DNA of 12,904 nt from Solirubrobacteraceae bacterium (GTDB lineage: Bacteria; Actinomycetota; Thermoleophilia; Solirubrobacterales; Solirubrobacteraceae). The notes beneath the pieces were generated by a model that worked only from the letters and a program-made list of their open reading frames with translations, did not search any database and had not been told where the DNA came from. The stretch's first letter is position 1, and every line of letters starts with the position of its first letter. Of this stretch, positions 2,265 through 12,904 are shown in pieces. The position numbers were made by a program, and so were the translations under genes. Location: positions 1 to 12,904 of the forward strand of contig JAICUS010000114.1 in NCBI GenBank assembly GCA_025935735.1, given 5' to 3'.

Positions 2265-2990
2265 ATGGCGCACGCCCAAGAGCTCCCCGGCGAACGCTTC
2301 CCCCGGGCGCGCACGGACGCCAGCGAGCAGATCGCGCTGGAGATCCGCCGCTACCTGGAGCGGCGCGACCTGCAGCCGGGCGACCGGATCGGCACCGAGC
2401 AGGAGCTCGCGGCGGAGTTCGGCGTCAGCCGGCCGACGCTGCGCGAGGGCCTGCGGCTGCTGGCCAGCTCGCACCTCATCCGGGTCGGCCGCGGGCGCTC
2501 GGGCGGCATCTTCGTCGCCCGCACGCCCAACGAGGGCATGAGCCGCAACGTCAGCGAGTCGATCGCCACGATGCTGGCCGCCGAGAGCGTGTCGCTGGCG
2601 GAGCTGATCGACGCACGGCTGTTCCTCGAGGTGCCGCTGGCCGGCCTCGCCGCCCGCCACGCCGGGCCGGACACGGCGGACCGGCTGCAAGAGGCGATCG
2701 ATGCCGCCACGGGCCACCAGCCGGGTACCGAGCCGTTCAACGCGGCCGACGGCAGCTTCCACCGCATCCTGGCCGAGGCGGCCGGCAACCCGCTGCTGCG
2801 CGCGTTCACCGACTGGATCCTCGAGGTGCTGCAGCCGAACCTCATCGTGCACATCTCCGGCCGCGTCGACGGCGAGGCGATCCTGCGCCAGCACCAGGAC
2901 ATCCAGCGCGCCGTGCGGCGCCGCCAGGCGGCGGCGGCCGAGCGCGCGATGGCCGCGCACATCGAGTACCTCAAGCAATTGCTCGACTGA
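2265..2990 (+). CDS. GntR family (FadR/FCD subfamily) transcriptional regulator
   Basis: A 241-residue cytoplasmic DNA-binding protein. Residues about 20-86 are a GntR winged helix (LQPGDRIGTEQELAAEFGVS, then RPTLREGLRLL, then the wing GRGRSGGIFV). Residues about 108-238 are an FCD ligand domain, with D162, H166 (SFHRILAEAAGN), H210 (RQHQDI) and H232 (MAAHIEYL) as candidate metal ligands. The family usually represses catabolic genes and releases DNA on binding an organic acid or acyl-type ligand. I chose the ATG at 2265 over the in-frame GTG at 2259 because it sits six bases after a TAGAAT -10 box. The gene is divergent from the HD-GYP gene (81 bp between starts), and its last 20 bp overlap the 3' end of the dehydrogenase gene on the other strand. 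Its target and effector cannot be read from the sequence. It could regulate itself, the HD-GYP gene, or distant genes. Confidence 0.92.
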   Translation: MAHAQELPGERFPRARTDASEQIALEIRRYLERRDLQPGDRIGTEQELAAEFGVSRPTLREGLRLLASSHLIRVGRGRSGGIFVARTPNEGMSRNVSESIATMLAAESVSLAELIDARLFLEVPLAGLAARHAGPDTADRLQEAIDAATGHQPGTEPFNAADGSFHRILAEAAGNPLLRAFTDWILEVLQPNLIVHISGRVDGEAILRQHQDIQRAVRRRQAAAAERAMAAHIEYLKQLLD

Positions 2991-3858
2991 CCGCGTCCGC
3001 GGCTTCGCGCAGACCGGTCAGCTCGTCGGGCGCCAGCTCCCACTCGTGGATCCGCTCGGCGCCGCCGGGGCCGAGCGCCACCGGCACCGTCACCGCCGCG
3101 CCGGCGATGCCGTACTCGCCGTCCAGCACGACCGAGGCCGGCCAGGGGTCGGCGCCGGCCGACAGCCCCGCGACCATCCGGGCGAGGCCGGCGCCCGAGG
3201 TCCAGGTGGAGGAGCGGCGCGAGTCCAGCGCGACGTGGCGGCGGTACCAGGTGCGGACGAACGCGTCTGCCGCCGCGCGCTCGGCGGCGTCCAGCGTCAC
3301 CGGCTCGCCGCGCACCGTCACGCGGCTGAACACCGGCACGGCCGCGTCGCCGTGCTCGCCCAGCACGTAGGCGCCCACGTCGGCCGGCGCCACGCCGCGC
3401 GCGGCCGCCACCGCGGTCCGCAGGCGCAGGCTGTCGTTGAGCGTGTAGCCGAGCACCCGCCGGCGGTCCAGGCCGTGGCGGCCCACCAGCCACGTGCACA
3501 GCGCGTCGACGGGGTTGGTGACCACGACGACCAGCGCGTCGCCCAGGCGCTCGGCGATGCCGGAGACGATCGCCGCGTTGTCGCGCAGGTAGACCGAGCG
3601 CGACGTGTTCTCGGTCAGCGGCGCGGCGGCGCAGATCACCACCACGTCCGCGTTGGCCACGTCCTCCGGCTCTCCCGCCCGCACGCGGCCGCCGCCGGCC
3701 AATACCGGCACCTGCTCGAGGTCCATGACGTGCGAGAGCACCTTCTGCGGGCGGCGGTCGACCACGACGACGTCGTAGGGCTCGGGGCGCAACAGGAGGT
3801 TGAACGCGAGCGAGGAGCCGACGCCGCCCGCGCCGCCGGCGATGGCGATCGTCTTCAT
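2971..3858 (-). CDS. Lactate/malate dehydrogenase family protein (L-2-hydroxyacid dehydrogenase) of uncertain substrate
   Basis: A 295-residue NAD-dependent oxidoreductase of the LDH/MDH superfamily. The Rossmann motif GGAGGVGSS is at 8-16, D34 ends strand 2 (VVVVD, indicating NAD over NADP), TNPVD is at 114-118, the substrate-binding segment NDSLRLR is at 141-147 (D142 pairs with the catalytic His, R145 binds the carboxylate), and GEHGD at 167-171 holds the catalytic H169. In the mobile loop (about 77-94) R87 aligns with LDH Arg109. The specificity position 102 appears to be L81, not Gln (lactate) or Arg (malate), so the natural 2-oxo acid is probably neither pyruvate nor oxaloacetate; this rests on a hand alignment. 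The ATG overlaps the stop of the upstream PaaX gene by four bases, so the two are co-transcribed and translationally coupled. Its link to the divergent aromatic operon is inference. A housekeeping malate dehydrogenase is the alternative. Confidence 0.9.
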   Translation of the reverse strand: MKTIAIAGGAGGVGSSLAFNLLLRPEPYDVVVVDRRPQKVLSHVMDLEQVPVLAGGGRVRAGEPEDVANADVVVICAAAPLTENTSRSVYLRDNAAIVSGIAERLGDALVVVVTNPVDALCTWLVGRHGLDRRRVLGYTLNDSLRLRTAVAAARGVAPADVGAYVLGEHGDAAVPVFSRVTVRGEPVTLDAAERAAADAFVRTWYRRHVALDSRRSSTWTSGAGLARMVAGLSAGADPWPASVVLDGEYGIAGAAVTVPVALGPGGAERIHEWELAPDELTGLREAADAVSRAIA

Positions 3859-4607
3859 CTCGCGCCGCATACTTCCAGGGCGTGCGCGAGCGCGGGCTCG
3901 CGCAGCCGCTCCTCGAGCGCGCCGAACACCGCCCAGGCGTGCTCGCCCGGCCAGTCGGCGGGCAGGGCGTCGGGCGGCAGGCCGGGGTCGTGGAACGGGA
4001 TCCGCCGCCACGCGTCGAGCTGGCGGACGTAGTCGGCGAACGCCGGCTCGCGGGCCAGCGCCGGCTCCCACTCGGCCACGTAGCGGGCGTACTCGGCGGC
4101 GATGCGCGCGAGGTCCCACCAGCGCGCCGGGTCGCCGTCCGGCGCCTCGCCGGTGAACAGCGTGACGTTGCCGTCGAGCCCCAGCTCGTCCACCAGCGCG
4201 CGCACCTCGCCCTCGAGCTGCGCGGGCGCGATCCACACGGCGGGCGCGACCGTGCCCAGGCCGAGGCCGGCGAGCCCGGCGCGCAGCCGGTGGCGCAGCG
4301 CCCGCTGGGCCTCGGGGATGGAGAAGACCACGAGCAGCCAGCCGGGGGCGCGGCGGCGGGCGAAGATGCGGGCGTCGCCGGCGCGCAGGATCGCCGCGCC
4401 GTGCTCGGTCAGCCGGTAGCCGGCGGCGCCGCCGCGGCGCTCGGAGGCGATCACCCCGCGGCGCTTGAGCCGCGAGACGCTCGAGCGCACCGACTGCGCG
4501 TCCAGCCCCAGCTCGGCCATCAGCGCGATCAGGTCGGCCACGGCGATCCAGCCGCCGAGCCGGCGCAGGAACGCGCCGAAGAACGTCATCAGCAGCGAGC
4601 GAGGCAC
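3855..4607 (-). CDS. PaaX family transcriptional regulator
   Basis: A 250-residue protein with the three-part PaaX architecture: an N-terminal winged helix (about 8-80; SVRSSVSRLKRRGVI at the recognition helix, then GYRLTEHG), a Cas2-like middle region starting WLLVVFSIPEAQRALRHRLR (90-109), and the C-terminal PaaX domain with WWDLARIAAEYARY and IPFHDPGLPPDALPADWPG. Family members are repressors of aromatic-acid operons that respond to an aryl-CoA; E. coli PaaX senses phenylacetyl-CoA. The GTG start at 4607 is supported by a TAGAAT exactly six bases upstream, which implies a leaderless mRNA; an ATG two bases earlier is out of frame. It is divergent from the aryl-CoA catabolic operon with 46 bp between starts, so it most likely controls that operon. 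The effector is plausibly the CoA ester made by the ligase at 9410-10909 (inference). The gene overlaps the downstream dehydrogenase by four bases. Confidence 0.92.
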   Translation of the reverse strand: MPRSLLMTFFGAFLRRLGGWIAVADLIALMAELGLDAQSVRSSVSRLKRRGVIASERRGGAAGYRLTEHGAAILRAGDARIFARRRAPGWLLVVFSIPEAQRALRHRLRAGLAGLGLGTVAPAVWIAPAQLEGEVRALVDELGLDGNVTLFTGEAPDGDPARWWDLARIAAEYARYVAEWEPALAREPAFADYVRQLDAWRRIPFHDPGLPPDALPADWPGEHAWAVFGALEERLREPALAHALEVCGAR

Positions 4608-4613
4608 ATAGCG

Positions 4614-4619
4614 ATTCTA
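4614..4619 (-). promoter_or_regulatory. -10 box of a leaderless promoter for the PaaX-family gene
   Basis: Read on the - strand, TAGAAT (4619 down to 4614) is followed by six bases and then the GTG at 4607. It is the same hexamer and spacing as for the GntR gene. No convincing -35 was found (TATCGC at 17 bp is poor). Confidence 0.6.
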
Positions 4620-4646
4620 TGACGGCAGTCACGAGGGCGATATAGT
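4619..4646 (+). promoter_or_regulatory. Leaderless promoter of the aryl-CoA catabolic operon
   Basis: TATAGT at 4641-4646 is a near-perfect -10 box, seven bases before the ATG at 4654. ATGACG at 4619-4624 matches four of six -35 positions with a 16-bp spacer. There is no room for a Shine-Dalgarno in a 5' leader, so the mRNA should be leaderless. The -35 overlaps the -10 of the divergent PaaX-gene promoter. Confidence 0.6.
4620..4631. promoter_or_regulatory. Candidate operator: TGAC-N4-GTCA inverted repeat
   Basis: A perfect short inverted repeat, TGACggcaGTCA, lies between the two divergent -10 boxes. A second one, GCGA-TATAG-TCGC (4637-4649), covers the operon's -10 box. Either could be bound by the PaaX-family regulator. 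Arms of four bases occur by chance easily in such DNA, so only the position supports the call. Confidence 0.35.
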
Positions 4647-4653
4647 CGCGGTC

Positions 4654-6864
4654 ATGCGGATCGCGATCGCGGGCGGCGGCCCGGGCGGCCTCTACCTCTC
4701 GATCCTGTTGAAGCGCCTGGATCCGTCCCACGAGGTCGTCGTCCACGAGCGCAACGCGCCCGACGACACGTTCGGCTTCGGCGTCGTGTTCTCCGACGAG
4801 ACCCTGGGCGCGTTCGAGGCGGCCGACCCGGAGAGCTACGCCGAGATCACCCGCCGCTTCGCCCGCTGGACGGAGATCGACGTCCACTACCGCGGCGAGG
4901 TGGTGACCAGCGGCGGCCACGGCTTCTCGGCCATGGGGCGCATGGAGCTGCTCAACCTGCTGCAGCGCCGCGCGGCCGACCTCGGCGTCGAGCTGCACTT
5001 CCGCAGCGAGGTCGACGAGCTCGAGGGCGACGTGGCGGTGGCCGCCGACGGCGTCAACTCGACGTTGCGCCGCCGCCACGCCGAGAGCTTCCGGCCGTCG
5101 CTGGACGTGCGCCGGGCCAAGTACGTCTGGTTCGGCACCGACCTCGTCTTCGACGCGTTCAAGTTCTTCATCAAGGACACGCCGGACGGCGTGCTGCAGG
5201 TCCACGGCTACCCGTACAGCGACACCCGCTCCACCTTCATCGTCGAGACGACGGAGGAGACGTGGCGGCGCGCCGGGCTGGACGCGCGCGACCCGCTGGA
5301 GGCGTGCGGCGAGCTGTTCGCCGACGTGCTGGACGGCCACCGGCTGATCGCCAACAAGTCGCAGTGGATCAACTTCACCACGGTCCGCAACGCGTCGTGG
5401 CGCCACGGCAACGTCGTGCTGCTGGGCGACGCGGCGCACACCGCGCACTTCTCGATCGGCTCGGGCACCAAGCTGGCCATGGAGGACGCGATCTCGCTCG
5501 CCTGGCACCTGGGGGAGGACGACGTGCCGGCGGCGCTCGAGGCCTACGAGGCCGAGCGGCGGCCGATCGTCGAGTCCACCCAGCGCGCCGCGCAGGGCTC
5601 GCTGGAGTGGTTCGAGGGGCTGCCGCGCTACACGCACCAGGAGCCGGTGCGGTTCGCGTTCAACCTGCTCACGCGGTCTCGCCGCATCACCTACGGCGAG
5701 CTGCAGATGCGCGACCCGGCGTTCGTCGCCCGGCTGGCACAGCGCCCGCCGATGTTCACGCCGTTCCGCCTGCGCGGGCTGGAGCTGCCCAACCGGGTCG
5801 TCGTCTCGCCGATGGACATGTACTCCTCGGTGGACGGCACCCCCGGCGACTTCCACCTCGTGCACCTCGGCTCGCGGGCCGTCGGCGGCGCCGGCCTGGT
5901 GATGACCGAGATGATCTGCACGTCGCCCGAGGCGCGGATCACGCCCGGCTGCGGCGGGCTGTGGTGCGAGGAGCACACCGCCGCCTGGAAGCGGATCGTC
6001 GACTTCGTGCACGCGCACTCGGGCGCGGCGATCGGCGCGCAGATCGGCCACGCCGGGCGCAAGGGCTCCACCTGCCTGCTGTGGGAGGGCGACCACCGGC
6101 CGCTGGAGGAGGGCAACTGGCCGCTCGTCGCGCCGTCGCCGCTGCCGTACTTCCCGGGGGTCAGCCAGGTGCCGCGCGAGATGACCCGGGCCGACATGGA
6201 CGCCGTGCGCGACGAGTTCGTGGCCGCCACCCGCCGCGCCGACGCCGCGGGGTTCGACCTGCTCGAGGTCCACATGGCCCACGGGTACCTGCTGTCGAGC
6301 TTCCTCTCGCCGCTGACCAACGTGCGCGACGACGAGTACGGGTCCGACCGCGCGCGGTTCCCGCTCGAGGTGTTCGCCGCGTGCCGCGAGGCGTGGCCGG
6401 CGGAGAAGCCGATGTCGGTGCGGATCAGCGCCACCGACTGGGTGGACGGCGGCTTCACCGGCGACGACGCGGTGGCGCTCGCCCGCCGGCTGAAGGAGGC
6501 CGGCTGCGACATCGCCGACGTCTCCACCGGCCAGGTGTCGCCCGACCAGGCGCCGGCCTACGGGCGCTCCTACCAGACCCCGTACGCCGACCGGATCCGC
6601 CACGAGGTCGGCCTGCCGGTGATCGCCGTCGGCGCGATCTCCAGCTACGACGACGTCAACACGATCATCCTGGCCGGCCGGGCCGACCTGTGCGCGCTCG
6701 CCCGCCCGCACCTGTGGGACCCGCACTGGACGCTGCACGCCGCGGCCGACCAGGGCGTCGACGTGCCGTGGCCGGTGCAGTACCAGTCCGGCGCGAGGCC
6801 GCCGAACACCGGCAAGGACGTCCGCCGGTCGCCGCTGCGGCGCTTCGACGCGGTGCCGGCATGA
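4654..6864 (+). CDS. Bifunctional aryl-CoA monooxygenase/reductase (2-aminobenzoyl-CoA monooxygenase/reductase or salicylyl-CoA 5-hydroxylase type)
   Basis: A 736-residue fusion of two flavoproteins. Residues 1 to about 360 are a FAD aromatic hydroxylase of the salicylate hydroxylase type: GGGPGG at 7-12 binds the FAD ADP part, the ADGVNSTLR motif is at 131-139, and [16 protein letters not shown] at 256-271 is the GD motif. Residues about 367-695 are an Old Yellow Enzyme/2,4-dienoyl-CoA reductase-type FMN barrel: [10 protein letters not shown] at 378-387, QIGHAGRKG at 463-471, [16 protein letters not shown] at 538-553 with H540 and H543, and a late phosphate-binding stretch around 659-684. 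In the Azoarcus evansii anthranilate pathway this fusion hydroxylates 2-aminobenzoyl-CoA at C5 and reduces the ring to 2-amino-5-oxocyclohex-1-ene-1-carbonyl-CoA. Relatives are annotated as salicylyl-CoA 5-hydroxylase, and sequence alone does not separate the two. It is the first gene of the operon and appears leaderless. Its TGA overlaps the next ATG by four bases. Confidence 0.9.
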
Positions 6865-7544
6865 CCCGGGTGGTGGTGGTCACGGGCGGCAACCGGGGGA
6901 TCGGCGCGGCGATCAGCGCGCGCTTCGCCGCGGCGGGCGACACGGTGCACGCACTGTCCAGCGCGGACTGCGACGTGACCGACGAGGACGCGGTCGGCGA
7001 CGTCCTCGGCGCGATCGGCCGGGTCGACGTGCTGGTCAACAACGCGGGGGTGTCCGACAGCGCGCCGGTGGAGCGCACCACGCTCGACCAGTGGCGCACG
7101 CAACTGGACGTCAACGCCACCGGCGCGTTCCTGTGCACCCGCGCGGTGCTCGGCGGGATGGCCGAGCGCGGCCACGGCCGGATCGTCACGGTGGCCTCGG
7201 TGGCCGGCCACCGCGGCTCGCGCTACACGGGCGCCTACACGGCCTCCAAGCACGCGGCGATCGGCTTCATGCGCGCCGTGGCCGCCGAGGTGGCGGGCAG
7301 CGACGTGACCGCCAACGCGGTCTGCCCGGCCTACGTGCGCTCGGACATGACCGACCGCACGATCGCCACCATCGAGGCGCGCACGGGCCGCGACGGCGAG
7401 GCCGCGCTGGCCGAGATGGCGCCGCTCGGGCGGCTGATCGAGCCCGAGGAGGTGGCGTTCGCCGTCGCCTTCCTGGCCGCGCCCGAGGCGGGAGCGATCA
7501 ACGGCCAGACGCTGATCCTGGACGGGGGAGGGGTGCAGCTGTGA
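6861..7544 (+). CDS. SDR family oxidoreductase (3-hydroxyacyl-CoA dehydrogenase / ketoreductase-like)
   Basis: A 227-residue classical short-chain dehydrogenase. The cofactor motif TGGNRGIG is at 8-15, NNAG at 60-63, the catalytic Asn at N85, and the Ser-Tyr-Lys triad at S113, Y126 (AYTASK) and K130. CPAYVRSDM (155-163) is the usual post-catalytic segment and DGGGVQL closes the protein. The start is the ATG at 6861, in a four-base ATGA overlap with the preceding stop. Between the ring-modifying enzyme and the crotonase it probably acts as the 3-hydroxyacyl-CoA dehydrogenase of the beta-oxidation-like steps, or reduces a ring ketone. The substrate is inferred from context. It ends in a four-base GTGA overlap with the next gene. 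Confidence 0.92.
7524..7533 (+). promoter_or_regulatory. Strong Shine-Dalgarno for the crotonase gene
   Basis: GGGGGAGGGG lies seven bases before the GTG at 7541, inside the end of the SDR gene. It supports the GTG start and independent ribosome entry in addition to coupling. Confidence 0.65.
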
Positions 7545-8323
7545 CGGAGTTCGGCTGGGAGGTGCGCGACGGCGTCGGCTTCCTCACGCTGGTCGGGGCG
7601 GAGCGCAAGAACCCGCTGACGTTCGCCTCCTACGCGGCGCTGCGCGACCACTTCCGCGCGCTGGCGCACGACGAGGACGTCCACGCGGTGGTCATCGCCG
7701 GCGAGCGGGGCAACTTCTGCTCGGGCGGCGACGTGCGCGACATCATCGGCCCGCTGACCGAGATGGACATGCCCGCGCTGCTGCGCTTCACCCGCATGAC
7801 CGGCGACCTCGTGAAGGCGATCCGCGGCTGCCGCCAGGTGGTGATCGCCGCCGTCGACGGCGTGTGCGTCGGCGCGGGCGCGATGATCGCCACCGCGGCG
7901 GACCTGCGCCTCGGCTCGCCGCGGGCGAAGGTTGCCTTCCTCTTCACCCGCGTCGGGCTGGCCGGCTGCGACATGGGCGCCTGCGCGATGCTGCCGCGGA
8001 TCGTCGGCCAGGGCCGGGCGGCCGAGCTGCTCTACACGGGCCGGTCGATGGCCGCGGCGGAGGCCGAGCGCATCGGCTTCTTCAACCGGCTGGCCGAGGA
8101 CGTCGAGGCCGAGGCGGCGGAGCTGGCGGCGTCGCTGGCGAGCGGGCCGACGTTCGCGCACTCGATGACCAAGACCATGCTCGAGCAGGAGTGGGACATG
8201 AGCGTGGCCGCGGCGATCGAGTCCGAGGCGCAGGCCCAGGCGATCTGCATGCAGACCCGGGACTTCGAGCGCGCCTACCGCGCGTTCCTGGCCAAGGAGC
8301 GGCCCGTGTTCGAGGGCGACTGA
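7541..8323 (+). CDS. Enoyl-CoA hydratase/isomerase (crotonase) family protein with atypical active site
   Basis: A 260-residue crotonase-fold protein. The first oxyanion-hole segment is NFCSGGDV (58-65), the second [13 protein letters not shown] (103-115), followed by [20 protein letters not shown] (135-154) and the helix ELLYTGRSM. The family handles acyl-CoA esters through an oxyanion hole: hydration, isomerisation, or hydrolysis and C-C bond cleavage. By hand alignment to rat mitochondrial enoyl-CoA hydratase, the two catalytic glutamates (E144, E164) correspond to M115 and F135. A plain hydratase role is therefore doubtful, whereas D144 in GCDMG is a possible acid/base. In this operon it may add water to, isomerise, or open the alicyclic ring. 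The GTG start sits in a four-base overlap with the SDR stop and behind a strong Shine-Dalgarno. The next gene starts one base after its stop. Confidence 0.88.
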
Positions 8324-8324
8324 C

Positions 8325-9410
8325 GTGCCCGACCTGCGCTGGCCGTTCTTCTCGGACGAGCACCGGGCGTTCGCCGCGGAGCTCGACGCGTGGGAGCTCC
8401 CGCCGGAGGAGGAGCTCGACGCGTATTGCCGCGCGCTCGTGGCCTCGCTGGGCGAGGCCGGCCTCCTGCGCCACTGCGTCGGCGAGCTCGACGTGCGCAC
8501 GCTGTGCATCGCCCGCGAGACGCTCGCCCACCGCGACGCGCTGGCCGACTTCGCGTTCGCCATGCAGGGCCTGGGGTCGGGCGCGATCTCGCTGTTCGGC
8601 ACCGACGAGCAGAAGGAGCGCTACCTGCCGGGCGTGGCCGCGGGTGAGAAGATCGCCGCGTTCGCGCTCTCCGAGCCGGAGGCCGGCTCGGACGTCGCGG
8701 CGATGGCCATGACCGCCACCGAGGACGGGCTGTTGTCGGGCGAGAAGACCTGGATCTCCAACGGCGGGATCGCCGACTTCTACACGGTCTTCGCCCGTGC
8801 GCCGCAGGGCATCAGCGCCTACGTCGTCGACGCGGACGCGCCGGGCCTGACCGTGGCCGAGCGCATCGACGTGATCGCCCCGCACCCGCTGGCCCGCCTG
8901 CGCTTCGACGAGGTGCCGGCGGAGCCGCTGGGCGCCCCGGGGCGCGGGATGCCGGTCGCGCTCGCCACGCTGGACGTCTTCCGCTCCACCGTCGGCGCCG
9001 CCGCGCTGGGGATGGCCCGGCGGGCGCTCGACGAGGCGCTCGGCCGGGTGCGGTCGCGCACGCTGTTCGGCGCGCCGATGGCGCGGCTGCCGCTCGTGCA
9101 GGCCAAGCTGGCCGACATGGCGCTCGACGTCGACGCCTCCGCGCTGCTCGTCTACCGGGCCGCCTGGACGCGGGACGTGCTCGGCGGCCGCGTGACCCGC
9201 GAGGCGGCGATGGCGAAACTGCACGCCACCGAGGCCGCCCAACGGGTGATCGACGCGGCGGTCCAGCTGTTCGGCGGGCTCGGGGTGACGGTGGGGGAGA
9301 CGGTCGAGCGCCTGTACCGGGAGATCCGGGCGCTGCGGATCTACGAGGGGGCGTCCGAGGTGCAGCAGCTGATCATCGCCCGCGCGACGCTCGAGGAGGA
9401 GCAGGCCTGA
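8325..9410 (+). CDS. Acyl-CoA dehydrogenase
   Basis: A 361-residue FAD acyl-CoA dehydrogenase, slightly shorter than the usual 380 because the N-terminal helical domain is trimmed. Visible landmarks are [11 protein letters not shown] (113-123, FAD/substrate loop), WISNGG (143-148), the dimer-FAD contact RTLFGAP (245-251), QLFGGLG (314-320) and the C-terminal IYEGASEVQ (339-347), where E341 fits the short-chain-type catalytic base. The enzyme removes the alpha,beta hydrogens from a CoA thioester and passes electrons to ETF; no ETF gene is in the window. In the pathway it would oxidise the reduced ring or its open-chain product. The GTG start at 8325 lies one base after the crotonase stop with only a weak Shine-Dalgarno, so coupling is likely. 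Its TGA overlaps the ligase ATG by one base. Confidence 0.92.
9393..9401 (+). promoter_or_regulatory. Strong Shine-Dalgarno for the aryl-CoA ligase gene
   Basis: GAGGAGGAG ends eight bases before the ATG at 9410, within the Glu-rich C-terminal codons of the acyl-CoA dehydrogenase. It fixes the ligase start. Confidence 0.7.
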
Positions 9411-10909
9411 TGGACACGTTCGCCCGCGACCACCTGCCGCCGCCGTCGGCCTGGCCGGACCTGAGCGCGCTGCCGTACCCAGAGCGGCTGAACGCCGGCG
9501 TCGAGCTGCTGCGCCACGACGGCGTGGCCGTCCGCGGCGAGGCCGGCGACTGGTCGTATGACGAGCTGCGCGCCCGGGCCGACGGCTACGCGGCGGCGCT
9601 GGGCATCGAGCCGGGCACGCGGGTGCTGCTGCACGCCGCCAACTCGCCCGCGGCGATCGCCGCCTGGCTGGGCATCCTGCGGGCCGGCGGGATCGTCGTG
9701 GCCACGATGCCGCTGCTGCGCGCCGGCGAGCTGGCCAAGGTGATCGACAAGGCTCGGGTCACGCACGCGCTGGTCGACGGGCCGCTGCTGGCCGAGGTGG
9801 CCAAGGCCCGGCCGCTGGAGATGCGGGCGCTCGAAGACGTCGGGGTGGGTGGGGACGGTCTCTTCGAGCCGGTGGACACCGCGGGCGACGACGTGGCGAT
9901 CATCGCCTTCACGTCGGGGACGACCGGTGTGCCGAAGGGCTGCGTGCACTTCCACCGCGACCTGCTGGCGACCTGCGACACGTTCGCGCGGGAGATCCTC
10001 GACCCGCAGCCCGACGAGGTGTTCAGCGGCACGCCGCCGCTGGCCTTCACCTACGGCCTGGGCGGCCTGGTCCTCTTCCCGCTGCGCTTCGGCGCCTCCA
10101 CGGCGCCCGTCGCCAAGCCGGGGCCGGAGGCGGTCCTGCGGGCCGTGCGCGAGCGCGGGATCACGACGCTGTTCACGGCGCCGACCGCCTACCGCGGCCT
10201 GCTGCGGACCGCTCAGGCCGAGGACCTCGCGTCGCTGCGCAAGTGCGTCTCGGCCGGCGAGCCGCTGCCCGCCGGCGTGGCCGAGGCGTGGACGGAGAAG
10301 ACCGGCATCCGCATCGTCGACGGCATCGGCTCGACGGAGATGCTGCACATCTTCATCGCCGCCCGGCCCGAGGCCGCCAAGCCCGGCTCCTGCGGCACGC
10401 CGGTGCCGGGCTACGAGGCGCGGATCGTCGGCCCGGACATGGCGACGCTGCCGCCCGGCGAGGTCGGGCGGCTGGCCGTGCGCGGGCCGACCGGCTGCCG
10501 CTACCTGGACGACGAGCGCCAGTCGGTCTACGTGGTCGACGGCTGGAACCTCACCGGCGACGCCTTCTCAACGGACCCCGACGGCTACTTCTGGTTCCAG
10601 GCGCGCACCGACGACATGATCATCTCCTCCGGCTACAACATCTCCGGCTTCGAGGTGGAGGCGACGCTGCTCGAGCACCCTGCGGTGGCCGAGTGCGCCG
10701 TGGTGGCCGCGCCCGACGAGGAGCGCGGCCACATCGTCAAGGCGTTCGTGGTGTGCGTGGGCGAGGTCGGCGCGCGCGAGCTGCAGGACCACGTGAAGGC
10801 CCGGATCGCGCCCTACAAGTACCCGCGGGCGGTGGAGTTCGTGGACGCGCTGCCGCGCACGCCCACCGGCAAGGTCCAGCGCAACGTGCTGCGGGCGCGG
10901 TCGGAGTGA
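9410..10909 (+). CDS. Aryl-CoA ligase (2-aminobenzoate-CoA ligase / benzoate-CoA ligase type)
   Basis: A 499-residue ANL-superfamily acyl-CoA synthetase. The core motifs are the P-loop FTSGTTGVPKG (167-177), GIGSTEM (305-311), LTGD (381-384), RTDDMIISSGYNISGFEVE (399-417) and the C-terminal PRTPTGKVQR (482-491) with the adenylation lysine K488. The segment SGTPPLAFTYGLGGLVLFPL (206-225) is characteristic of the aromatic-acid ligases, especially proteins annotated as 2-aminobenzoate-CoA ligase. The reaction is acid + ATP + CoA giving aryl-CoA + AMP + PPi in the cytoplasm. It is the fifth gene of the operon and would make the substrate for the fused monooxygenase/reductase at 4654-6864. Anthranilate is the best guess given the Rid protein and beta-oxidation genes. 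Salicylate or benzoate cannot be excluded from the sequence. The start is well supported by a strong Shine-Dalgarno; the stop overlaps the next GTG by four bases. Confidence 0.92.
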   Translation: MDTFARDHLPPPSAWPDLSALPYPERLNAGVELLRHDGVAVRGEAGDWSYDELRARADGYAAALGIEPGTRVLLHAANSPAAIAAWLGILRAGGIVVATMPLLRAGELAKVIDKARVTHALVDGPLLAEVAKARPLEMRALEDVGVGGDGLFEPVDTAGDDVAIIAFTSGTTGVPKGCVHFHRDLLATCDTFAREILDPQPDEVFSGTPPLAFTYGLGGLVLFPLRFGASTAPVAKPGPEAVLRAVRERGITTLFTAPTAYRGLLRTAQAEDLASLRKCVSAGEPLPAGVAEAWTEKTGIRIVDGIGSTEMLHIFIAARPEAAKPGSCGTPVPGYEARIVGPDMATLPPGEVGRLAVRGPTGCRYLDDERQSVYVVDGWNLTGDAFSTDPDGYFWFQARTDDMIISSGYNISGFEVEATLLEHPAVAECAVVAAPDEERGHIVKAFVVCVGEVGARELQDHVKARIAPYKYPRAVEFVDALPRTPTGKVQRNVLRARSE

Positions 10910-11292
10910 GGGTCCTGCAGCCCGAGGGGTGGCCGCGCCCGCGCGGGTTCGCCCACGGCGTCGTCGCCGAGGGGCGGATGGTGTTCGTGGCCGGGATGAT
11001 CGGCTGGGACGCGGCGGGCAAGTTCGCCGGCGACGACCTGCCCGCGCAGGTGCGCCAGGCGCTGGCCAACGTGCTCGCCGTGCTGGCCGAGGCCGGCGGC
11101 GGGCCGGAGCACGTCGCGCGGCTCACCTGGTACGTGACCGACCGCGACGAGTACAACGCGGCGCAGAAGGAGATCGGCGCCGCGTATCGCGAGGTCATGG
11201 GCCGCCACTTCCCGGCGATGGCCGTCGTCGAGGTCAGCGGGCTGGTTGAGGCGCGGGCGAAGGTCGAGATCGAGGCGACCGCGGTGCTGTGA
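10906..11292 (+). CDS. Rid (YjgF/YER057c/UK114) family protein lacking the RidA arginine
   Basis: A 128-residue small Rid-fold protein, expected to form a trimer with active sites between subunits. Landmarks are VFVAGMIGWD (26-35), the central helix QVRQALANVLAVLAEAG (48-64), LTWYVTDRDEY (73-83), HFPAMAVVEVSGL (101-113) and the terminal VEIEATAVL (120-128). RidA hydrolyses reactive enamines/imines and needs an Arg (E. coli R105) in the motif PARS. Here that position is M105 (PAMA, codon 11218-11220), as in the Rid4-7 subfamilies that lack this Arg, so canonical 2-aminoacrylate deaminase activity is unlikely. The homologue in the A. evansii anthranilate cluster was called a translation inhibitor. 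In this pathway the ring intermediate is itself an enamine, so a role in deamination or in chaperoning that CoA ester is attractive but unproven. GTG start in a GTGA overlap with the ligase. The 3' end overlaps the convergent membrane-protein gene by 59 bp. Confidence 0.9.
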   Translation: MRVLQPEGWPRPRGFAHGVVAEGRMVFVAGMIGWDAAGKFAGDDLPAQVRQALANVLAVLAEAGGGPEHVARLTWYVTDRDEYNAAQKEIGAAYREVMGRHFPAMAVVEVSGLVEARAKVEIEATAVL

Positions 11293-11851
11293 GCAGCGGC
11301 AGCAGCCTGTGCAGCAGCGGGCCGATCGACACCGCGTAGACGACCGTCCCGAGCCCGACCGTCCCGCCGAGCAGCCAGCCCGTGACCAGCACGATGACCT
11401 CGATGCTCGTGCGGATGAGCCGCACCGAGCGCCCGGTGCGCCGCACCAGCCCGGTCATCAGCCCGTCGCGCGGCCCCGGCCCGAAGCCGGCGCCGATGTA
11501 CGCCGCGCCGGCCACGCCGTTGAGGAACACGCCCGAGGCCAGCATGAGCAGCTGCACCGGCAGCGGCCCGGCGCTCGGGACGAGGCCCAGCGCCGCGTCG
11601 ACGGAGAGGCCGATCACGAACACGTTGCTCACCGTCCCCAGGCCGGGGAGCTGCCTGAGCGGGATCCAGCCCAGCAGGACCGCGCCGCCGGTGATCATCG
11701 TCACCGTCCCGAACGAGAGCGACGTGTGGTTGGTCACGCCCTGGTGGAAGACGTCCCAGGGATCGAGCCCGAGCCCGGCCCGGATCTGCAGCGCCATGCT
11801 CGTCCCGTAGAGGACCAGGCCGGCGTAGAGCTGGATGAGGCGACGCGCCAT
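11234..11851 (-). CDS. YczE/YitT-like integral membrane protein
   Basis: A 205-residue, strongly hydrophobic protein with about five predicted membrane segments (roughly 4-22, 47-64, 70-90, 97-121, 148-176). The N-terminal signature LYGTSMALQIRAGLGLDPWD (14-33) followed by VFHQGV, together with FGPGPRDGLMTGL (123-135), is typical of the YczE family, whose function is unsettled. In Bacillus, YczE has been linked to surfactin production. I chose the ATG at 11851 because it starts the conserved MARRLIQLYAGL segment. An in-frame ATG at 11890 would add 13 polar residues and push the start into the divergent promoter. A group of MocR regulators is known to be genetically linked to such membrane proteins, which fits the divergent neighbour at 11915. 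The Arg/Pro-rich tail (190-205) is read from the strand opposite the Rid gene's 3' end. Confidence 0.88.
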   Translation of the reverse strand: MARRLIQLYAGLVLYGTSMALQIRAGLGLDPWDVFHQGVTNHTSLSFGTVTMITGGAVLLGWIPLRQLPGLGTVSNVFVIGLSVDAALGLVPSAGPLPVQLLMLASGVFLNGVAGAAYIGAGFGPGPRDGLMTGLVRRTGRSVRLIRTSIEVIVLVTGWLLGGTVGLGTVVYAVSIGPLLHRLLPLLTAPRSPRSRPSPAPQPAR

Positions 11852-11914: not shown

Positions 11915-12904
11915 ATGGCCGTCGCGGTCTCCGGCCCGTACCTCGCCCGGCTCCTCGGCGGCTGGCGGGCGTCCGGCCCGGCCTACGTCTCGCTCGCCCG
12001 GGCCCTGCGGCTGCTCGTGCTCGACGGGCGGCTGCCGCTGCGCACCCGGCTCCCGGGCGAGCGCGAGCTGGCCGAGGCGCTCGGCGTCAGCCGGACCACC
12101 GCGAGCGCAGCCTACGCGGAGCTGCGCGCCGAGGGCTACCTGGCGAGCCGGCGCGGGAGCGGCAGCTGGACGCGCCTGCCCGCCGACCGGCCCGCCGCCG
12201 CCGTGCCGGCGCCGCCCGGCCCGGAGCTCATCGACCTCGTCACCGCCGCGAGCGCCGCGCCGGAGGGCGCCCTGCACGCCGCGCTGGCCGCGGCCACGGC
12301 CGAGCTGCCCCGCCACCTGCCCGCGAGCGGCTACTACGAGGCGGGCCTGCCGACGCTGCGGTCGGCGATCGCCGAGCGCTACGAGCGCCGCGGCGTCCCC
12401 ACGGCGCCCGAGCAGGTCTTCGTCACCTCCGGCGCGCTGCACGGCTTCACCCTGCTGCTGCGCGCGCTGGCCGCGCCCGGCGCCCGGGTGCTCACCGACC
12501 ACCCGAGCTACCCCGCCGCTCTCGACGCCATCCGGGCGGCCGGCGCGCGCCCCGCGCCCGTCCCGCTCGGCCCGGCCGGCTGGGACATGGAGCTGCTCGA
12601 AGCCACGCTGCGCCAGGCCGCGCCCCGGCTGGCCTACCTCATCGCCGACAACCACAACCCGACCGGCCTGTCGCTGCCCGCGGCCGACCGCGAGCGCCTC
12701 GTCGCGCTCGCCCGCGCGACCCGCACGCCGCTGGTGGTCGACGAGGCGATGACCGAGCTCGACCTCGACGGCGACCCGCCGCCGCCGGTCGCCGCGCACG
12801 ACCCCGCGGGCGAGACGGCGATCTCCCTGGGGTCGATGAGCAAGGGCTTCTGGGCCGGGCTGCGAATCGGCTGGATCCGCGCCGCGCCCGCGCTCGTCCA
12901 CCGC
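11915..12904 (+). CDS. MocR-type regulator: GntR winged helix fused to an aminotransferase-I domain, partial at right edge
   Basis: The frame is open from the ATG at 11915 to the last base (330 codons, no stop), so the C-terminal third of a protein of about 450-480 residues is missing. Residues about 24-86 are a GntR winged helix (LPLRTRLPGERELAEALGVS, 40-59, then RTTASAAYAELRAEGYL). After a linker, residues about 105-330 are a fold-type I PLP domain: SGYYEAGLPTLRSAIAERY (138-156), SGALHGF (172-178), DHPSYP (195-200), DNHNPTG (245-251), VVDEA (274-278) with D276 contacting the pyridine nitrogen, and SMSKGFWAGLRIGW (307-320) with K310 as the PLP lysine. MocR proteins use PLP or PLP-adducts as effectors. 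It is divergent from a YczE-like gene, matching the known YczR-type pairing. PdxR-type control of vitamin B6 genes is less likely because none are adjacent. The start is supported by the leaderless promoter. Confidence 0.92.
   Translation, partial: MAVAVSGPYLARLLGGWRASGPAYVSLARALRLLVLDGRLPLRTRLPGERELAEALGVSRTTASAAYAELRAEGYLASRRGSGSWTRLPADRPAAAVPAPPGPELIDLVTAASAAPEGALHAALAAATAELPRHLPASGYYEAGLPTLRSAIAERYERRGVPTAPEQVFVTSGALHGFTLLLRALAAPGARVLTDHPSYPAALDAIRAAGARPAPVPLGPAGWDMELLEATLRQAAPRLAYLIADNHNPTGLSLPAADRERLVALARATRTPLVVDEAMTELDLDGDPPPPVAAHDPAGETAISLGSMSKGFWAGLRIGWIRAAPALVHR

Follow-up and report, generated by a model that had tools for sequence, protein, structure and literature searches.

The closest described counterpart of the genes reported here is the 2-aminobenzoate (anthranilate) pathway of Azoarcus evansii, which Schuhle et al. 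2001 reportedly found to comprise a coenzyme A (CoA) ligase, a fusion of a monooxygenase with a reductase of the old yellow enzyme (OYE) type, three beta-oxidation-type enzymes and a 'putative translation inhibitor', an old name for YjgF/Rid proteins. Here we describe a six-gene operon in a window of 12,904 nucleotides, the whole stretch of DNA that was analysed (contig JAICUS010000114.1 of a Solirubrobacteraceae bacterium; 75% G+C). The operon equals the A. evansii system in its set of six functions, as judged from the functions described for it, and differs from it in having PaaX for MarR as regulator, in lacking a recognised gene for an ATP-binding cassette (ABC) binding protein, and in consisting of six genes only. 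Judged from its sequence, it very probably encodes the beta-oxidation branch of aerobic anthranilate catabolism via CoA thioesters. This type of pathway is already known and widespread, and the operon adds one further case; its interest lies in a residue of the Rid protein, in a link between reductase and gene context, and in a clue pointing to glutaryl-CoA.

Two other systems are relevant. The Sdg salicylyl-CoA/gentisate pathway of Streptomyces WA46 is said to begin with a CoA ligase and a 5-hydroxylase, in which it resembles our operon as far as its description goes, and to end in a gentisate dioxygenase; to our knowledge it contains no Rid or beta-oxidation genes. It is cited in PMC13215587, a study of 2026 which, according to an excerpt, found 'SdgC' in 59 strains of Massilia (98%), interpreted it as a salicylate pathway and observed its induction by salicylate in one strain. 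Plasmid pAL1 of the actinobacterium Arthrobacter sp. Rue61a (NC_009453, locus L001) is closer, with a fusion and a ligase 59% and 51% identical to the window proteins, PaaX regulators, a Rid protein and a proven anthranilate-CoA ligase activity in the strain. It carries a cupin of 160 amino acids, an FAH-family hydrolase and a TesB-like thioesterase in place of the short-chain dehydrogenase/reductase (SDR), crotonase and acyl-CoA dehydrogenase found here. The A. evansii pathway is itself cited in excerpts of PMC4539516, PMC8388817 and PMC3534580.

The operon, its substrate and its relatives

The six genes lie in one direction on the + strand (4654-11292), and their junctions are, in order, a 4-bp overlap, a 4-bp overlap, a 1-bp gap, a 1-bp overlap and a 4-bp overlap. 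The first (4654-6864) encodes a full-length fusion of 736 amino acids with both halves present, a flavin adenine dinucleotide (FAD) monooxygenase (FAD_binding_3, residues 3-310) and an OYE-type flavin mononucleotide (FMN) reductase (Oxidored_FMN, residues 367-697). It is followed by an SDR-family reductase predicted to act on a ring ketone or hydroxyacyl intermediate (6861-7544), a crotonase of the PRK08258/NF006107 family (7541-8323; ECH domain, NF006107 above cut-off), an acyl-CoA dehydrogenase (8325-9410; Acyl-CoA_dh), an aryl-CoA ligase predicted to act on 2-aminobenzoate (9410-10909; AMP-binding domain, with matches to solved relatives) and a Rid-family protein (10906-11292; Ribonuc_L-PSP). 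A PaaX-family gene with all three PaaX Pfam domains (3855-4607, - strand) diverges from the operon. A preliminary description of this DNA, made from its letters, had proposed the same strand, junctions, functions and neighbouring PaaX-family regulator; the open reading frame coordinates bear out the layout, and Pfam and NCBIfam profile scans of ten window proteins agree with the assignments.

The substrate is most likely anthranilate, which arises in the degradation of tryptophan, converted via 2-aminobenzoyl-CoA, a reading which the preliminary description had also preferred and which is supported by the gene set, the intact reductase domain, the Rid gene and the relatives. A single cluster in the window holds the aryl-CoA ligase, the three beta-oxidation-type enzymes and Rid, together with a fusion whose reductase site is intact. 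The best solved relative of the ligase is the anthranilate-CoA ligase 4wv3 (266 bits), and among the best 120 of 7999 fusion homologues many carry the JGI name anthraniloyl-CoA monooxygenase. According to excerpts of a study of Rue61a (PMC3534580), two anthranilate-CoA ligases of that strain form anthraniloyl-CoA when tested in E. coli extracts, anthranilate-grown cells contain anthraniloyl-CoA, and the species C7H7NO3-CoA and C7H8O4-CoA appear only on anthranilate; the latter formula fits the deaminated dione of the route set out below. The same excerpts report that Rue61a grows on anthranilate and fails to grow on salicylate, on gentisate and on 5-hydroxyanthranilate.

The window fusion shares 78-79% identity with named Solirubrobacter fusions and up to 98% with metagenome proteins. 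In a FastTree phylogeny of 228 fusions the window falls into a set of eight rows with seven Solirubrobacter-like loci (local support 100), of which L175 has the closest fusion (81% identity), and we take the window to derive from a Solirubrobacter relative. All seven loci examined (L006, L007, L175, L184, L191, L192 and L193) contain fusion, SDR, crotonase, acyl-CoA dehydrogenase, ligase and Rid in identical order and direction. As L191 equals L192, these amount to six distinct loci, and the repeated six-gene order is not due to chance.

The fusion itself is not rare. With query A1 (E up to 1e-200) it was found in 29/232 genomes from the same order as a Solirubrobacter genome, 57/399 from the same order as a Cupriavidus genome and 53/289 from the same class as a Rhodospirillales genome; with query A2 (E up to 1e-250) it was found in 167/299 from the same family as genome G444 and 219/297 from the same family as a Streptomyces genome. 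The larger taxon groups were sampled rather than covered exhaustively. It is thus common across the sampled actinobacterial and proteobacterial groups.

To compare contexts, genes neighbouring the fusion were typed by tblastn against reference genes, the resulting labels depending on the available flanks and on identity thresholds. Type A, the beta-oxidation type to which the window belongs, has the special crotonase and/or acyl-CoA dehydrogenase near the fusion; type B has the 160-amino-acid cupin, as on pAL1; type C has a gentisate-dioxygenase-like cupin of about 375 amino acids. The 231 loci with a fusion match comprised 149 of type A, 26 of type B, 8 of type C and 48 unclassified. Dropping L195, L197 and L315, whose fusions had a coverage of 85% or less, left 228 fusions, 227 of them different (148, 26, 7 and 47, respectively). 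Loci with flanks of about 1.5 kb (L086-L171) were left out of the context analysis. Type C was enriched deliberately, by six records similar to a type C fusion (one of them, L309, being type C) and by eleven records found via the cupin, two of which had a fusion (L315 and L325). Single in-frame stops, reflecting decay or sequencing error, interrupt the fusion reading in each of L026, L076, L201 and L308.

A kynureninase gene, a source of anthranilate, occurs in the flanks of 6/148 type A, 1/26 type B, 2/47 unclassified and 0/7 type C loci. Genes for a cyclase-family protein (perhaps an isatin hydrolase) and for 2-oxoacid oxidoreductases occur close to some of the loci in each of the three types, and could supply anthraniloyl-CoA from isatinate.

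The predicted route and its alternatives

Little biochemistry is available for the steps that follow the monooxygenase/reductase; comparison of many relatives predicts an enzyme for each, and an operon of six proteins is small enough for reconstitution. In the proposed route the ligase would convert anthranilate to 2-aminobenzoyl-CoA, as shown for its Rue61a homologues, and the fusion, by analogy with the A. evansii enzyme, would hydroxylate C5 and reduce the ring to 2-amino-5-oxocyclohex-1-ene-1-carboxyl-CoA. Rid would then hydrolyse the ring enamine, releasing ammonia and leaving 2,5-dioxocyclohexane-carboxyl-CoA. The SDR may reduce the 5-ketone, the crotonase may shift or open the ring, and the acyl-CoA dehydrogenase, with general beta-oxidation enzymes, would convert the C7-dicarboxyl-CoA to acetyl-CoA and glutaryl-CoA, the order of these steps being tentative.

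The assignment of deamination to Rid involves a departure from the RidA/YjgF/UK114 enamine deaminases, with which the window Rid shares its family and a conserved Glu (residue 121 in the window; 159/159 cluster Rids). In RidA, Arg105 binds the substrate carboxylate and is required for activity, as stated in excerpts of PMC4433059 and PMC8113886. The window protein has Met at the aligned position and so lacks this catalytic Arg. Of the 159 Rids from typed loci, 147 carry Met at this position, 12 carry Ser, Ala, Thr, Ile or Leu, and none carries Arg. Such a loss would be explained by the predicted substrate, a CoA thioester, having no free carboxylate for the Arg to bind. If the window Rid is indeed a deaminase, it breaks the accepted Arg105 rule. 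In a literature text search, none of the matches listed combined Rid terms with anthraniloyl-CoA terms.

It is also possible, though we are inclined to doubt it, that Rid is a general protective or regulatory partner and that deamination is spontaneous or performed by the crotonase. The replacement of Arg105 in every cluster Rid speaks for this, as do the published Rids without that residue, none of which has so far proved active as a deaminase according to the same excerpts (PMC8113886, PMC4433059). Apart from the missing carboxylate, the distribution of the gene argues the other way: Rid lies near the fusion in 125/148 type A and 25/26 type B loci (and in 10/47 unclassified ones), and is absent from all seven type C loci, six of which have a CN-hydrolase match, one at only 35% identity.

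For the crotonase, the residues point away from plain hydration. The first of the two Glu of canonical enoyl-CoA hydratases is Phe in 139/139 sequences, and the second is kept in 96/139, the window included, so that the window enzyme does not have the canonical pair. Asp144, by comparison, is invariant (139/139), the only acid at the site that is so, and the DMG motif aligns with the Asp of 6slb, which we take to be a PaaG-type isomerase. The Glu-to-Phe exchange and the invariant Asp make isomerase or ring-opening chemistry more likely than plain hydration.

Neighbouring genes give a hint of an exit through glutaryl-CoA. A glutaryl-CoA dehydrogenase gene adjoins 8/148 type A and 4/47 unclassified loci (identified by a Sinorhizobium protein that matches solved enzymes with 687 bits, the others by at least 50% identity to it), a FadJ-like hydroxyacyl-CoA dehydrogenase gene 11/148 type A loci and a PcaF-like thiolase gene 10/148, and none of the three adjoins a type B (0/26) or a type C (0/7) locus. 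These neighbours favour a C7-dicarboxyl-CoA that is cut to acetyl-CoA and glutaryl-CoA. The glutaryl-CoA dehydrogenase genes count against another exit from the same substrate, in which the ring-opened C7 product is oxidised with the 5-oxygen kept, giving acetyl-CoA and 2-oxoglutarate or 2-hydroxyglutarate-type products. We consider this exit conceivable rather than probable; in its favour, no glutaryl-CoA dehydrogenase gene is recognised in the window and the core acyl-CoA dehydrogenase scores 163 bits against an NCBIfam cut-off of 470 for glutaryl-CoA dehydrogenase.

An operon of broad specificity, serving several 2-substituted benzoates, is unlikely: aryl-CoA ligases of this group often take benzoate and 2-fluorobenzoate, according to an excerpt of PMC8388817, while the amine is indicated by Rid and by the kynureninase genes that adjoin the cluster in a few relatives. 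Least likely is the salicylyl-CoA pathway, in which the ligase would activate salicylate and the fusion make gentisyl-CoA; the fusion does exceed the cut-off of NF006101, the bifunctional salicylyl-CoA 5-hydroxylase/oxidoreductase (1137 bits against 1078), yet two reference cupin dioxygenases, used in a search for gentisate dioxygenase, have no match between the ends of the window, nor in the flanks (8.7-10 kb per side) of the seven close relatives, a gentisate route would leave Rid, crotonase and acyl-CoA dehydrogenase without a function, and the Rue61a fusion bears the identical name in its record and comes from a strain that does not grow on salicylate according to the excerpts of PMC3534580. 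The salicylate reading, for which the preliminary description had named a nearby gentisate dioxygenase as the sign to look for, was rejected for the window after this search.

The Rue61a data, together with the Rid, kynureninase and isatinate-type neighbours, all point to anthranilate, and the NCBI name salicylyl-CoA 5-hydroxylase is thus probably wrong for the group to which the window fusion belongs. As the fusion is common, this name probably misleads the annotation of pathways, and salicylate degradation may be over-reported.

Several observations weigh against the proposed anthranilate route as a whole or in its parts. The window ligase matches the benzoate-CoA ligase 4eat nearly as well as the anthranilate enzyme (260 bits), and in Rue61a the plasmid copy is dispensable for growth on anthranilate, chromosomal paralogues being held responsible (excerpts of PMC3534580). 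At the thresholds used, an SDR match was found at only 77/144 type A loci and a ligase match at 103/144. Among the unclassified fusions, 28/47, each with flanks of over 5 kb to either side, lack any type A-C marker gene, so the fusion often stands alone. By the published Arg105 rule the cluster Rids should be inactive, and 23/148 type A loci, several of them not truncated, have no Rid in the available flanks. Finally, only a minority of loci provide the glutaryl-CoA clue, which is also shared by unclassified ones and is absent from the window.

The reductase site and the type C loci

In the OYE protein YqjM the substrate-binding residues are His164, His167 and Tyr169 (excerpt of PMC4002455), which correspond to His540, His543 and Tyr545 of the fusion by alignment to other solved OYEs, the YqjM numbering being matched by motif. 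All three are present in the window fusion, whose reductase site is intact, as its pathway would require. With His466 added, the set is intact in 147/148 type A, 26/26 type B and 47/47 unclassified fusions (220/221). The sole type A exception, L196 (His540 to Asp), has the longest terminal branch in the fusion tree.

Type C comprises only seven fusions, and in these the set is altered in 7/7, with His540 replaced by Gln in six and Tyr545 by Phe or His in five. The pattern was first seen in five fusions and then held in two later additions (L309 and L325). On the tree, at least 4 changes are required to explain the type C context and 5 to explain the residue state, and the two change together in 4/4 independent pairs, too few for significance (sign test, p 0.125). 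In a fungal OYE about 30% of the activity survived single changes comparable to these (excerpt of PMC10787880), and 'impaired' is therefore a safer term than 'dead' for the type C site.

A CN-hydrolase gene is accompanied by an Asp/Glu-racemase-like gene at 5/8 type C loci; two further loci have a weak CN-hydrolase match only (35-36%), and L004, where insertion-sequence genes surround the cluster, has neither. The gene order in Caballeronia SBC1 is oxidoreductase pair, thioesterase, fusion, cupin, FAH, CN-hydrolase, racemase. The type C cupin most resembles gentisate and 5-aminosalicylate dioxygenases but reaches neither NCBIfam cut-off, and NCBIfam names neither the CN-hydrolase as maleamate amidase nor the racemase-like protein as maleate isomerase. 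Since CN-hydrolase and racemase-like genes fit a maleamate/maleate route and hence an amine substrate, we dropped the idea that type C loci are true salicylate pathways. Perhaps 5-hydroxyanthranilate is cleaved there and the amine leaves as maleamate; a literature text search returned, among the matches listed, no paper pairing 5-hydroxyanthranilate terms with maleamate.

With this in mind, one may tentatively regard the fusion family as a switch point of anthranilate catabolism, an idea we hold to be quite possible without favouring it. According to this model, a working OYE domain would lead to ring reduction, deamination by a Met105 Rid and the glutaryl-CoA exit. An OYE domain degraded repeatedly and independently would leave an aromatic product, 5-hydroxyanthranilate, to be cleaved by the gentisate-dioxygenase-like cupin and channelled through maleamate.

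The clusters of L309, L216, L072, L079 and L085, in which an altered-OYE fusion lies near cupin, FAH hydrolase, CN-hydrolase and Asp/Glu racemase genes, are possible 5-hydroxyanthranilate/maleamate pathways. Four further stretches (L319, L320, L322 and L323) contain cupin, FAH, CN-hydrolase, racemase-like and 2-oxoacid oxidoreductase genes, with a thioesterase in three and no fusion in the stretch; these genes could serve 5-hydroxyindole-type substrates that enter below the hydroxylase. Type B loci (L001, L002, L003 and others), with their 160-amino-acid cupin, FAH hydrolase, TesB-like thioesterase, intact OYE domain and Rid, suggest a third, unexplained downstream route.

Control and neighbouring genes

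PaaX proteins are known as repressors with a CoA thioester as inducer, and the window PaaX probably represses the operon in a similar manner. The paaX-fusion intergenic region contains an inverted repeat, CATAG-CGATT-CTATG (4607-4621), which lies at the PaaX start codon, has its arms kept in L006 and is a candidate operator. A TATAGT motif 7 bases upstream of the fusion start codon suggests a leaderless transcript. The difference in control from A. evansii, to which the preliminary description had drawn attention, is indeed seen: neither a MarR regulator nor an ABC binding protein is among the ten window proteins scanned. Control by PaaX is not unusual; PaaX genes flank many actinobacterial versions of the cluster and MarR genes many proteobacterial ones. 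Among the seven Solirubrobacter-like loci a PaaX match adjoins the operon in L006 only (57%). The MarR regulator and the ABC binding protein are accessory and do not define the chemistry of the pathway.

A malate/lactate-dehydrogenase-like gene (2971-3858, - strand) shares 4 bp with paaX, which made its product a candidate for a pathway enzyme. The gene is probably unrelated, since in L007 and L175 it adjoins a GntR gene with no PaaX match. Downstream, a gene for a membrane protein, YczE-like by reading (11234-11851, - strand), overlaps the Rid gene by 59 bp at its 3' end and is followed by the start of a MocR-like regulator, also by reading (11915-12904, + strand); neither shows a sign of a pathway role. 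Upstream lie the C-terminal half of a thiolase at the window edge (58-624) and an HD-domain protein that contains a MerR-type helix-turn-helix (621-2183). Homologues of the thiolase and/or the HD-domain protein are also found upstream of the operon in the seven Solirubrobacter-like loci, L006 having a thiolase fragment only.

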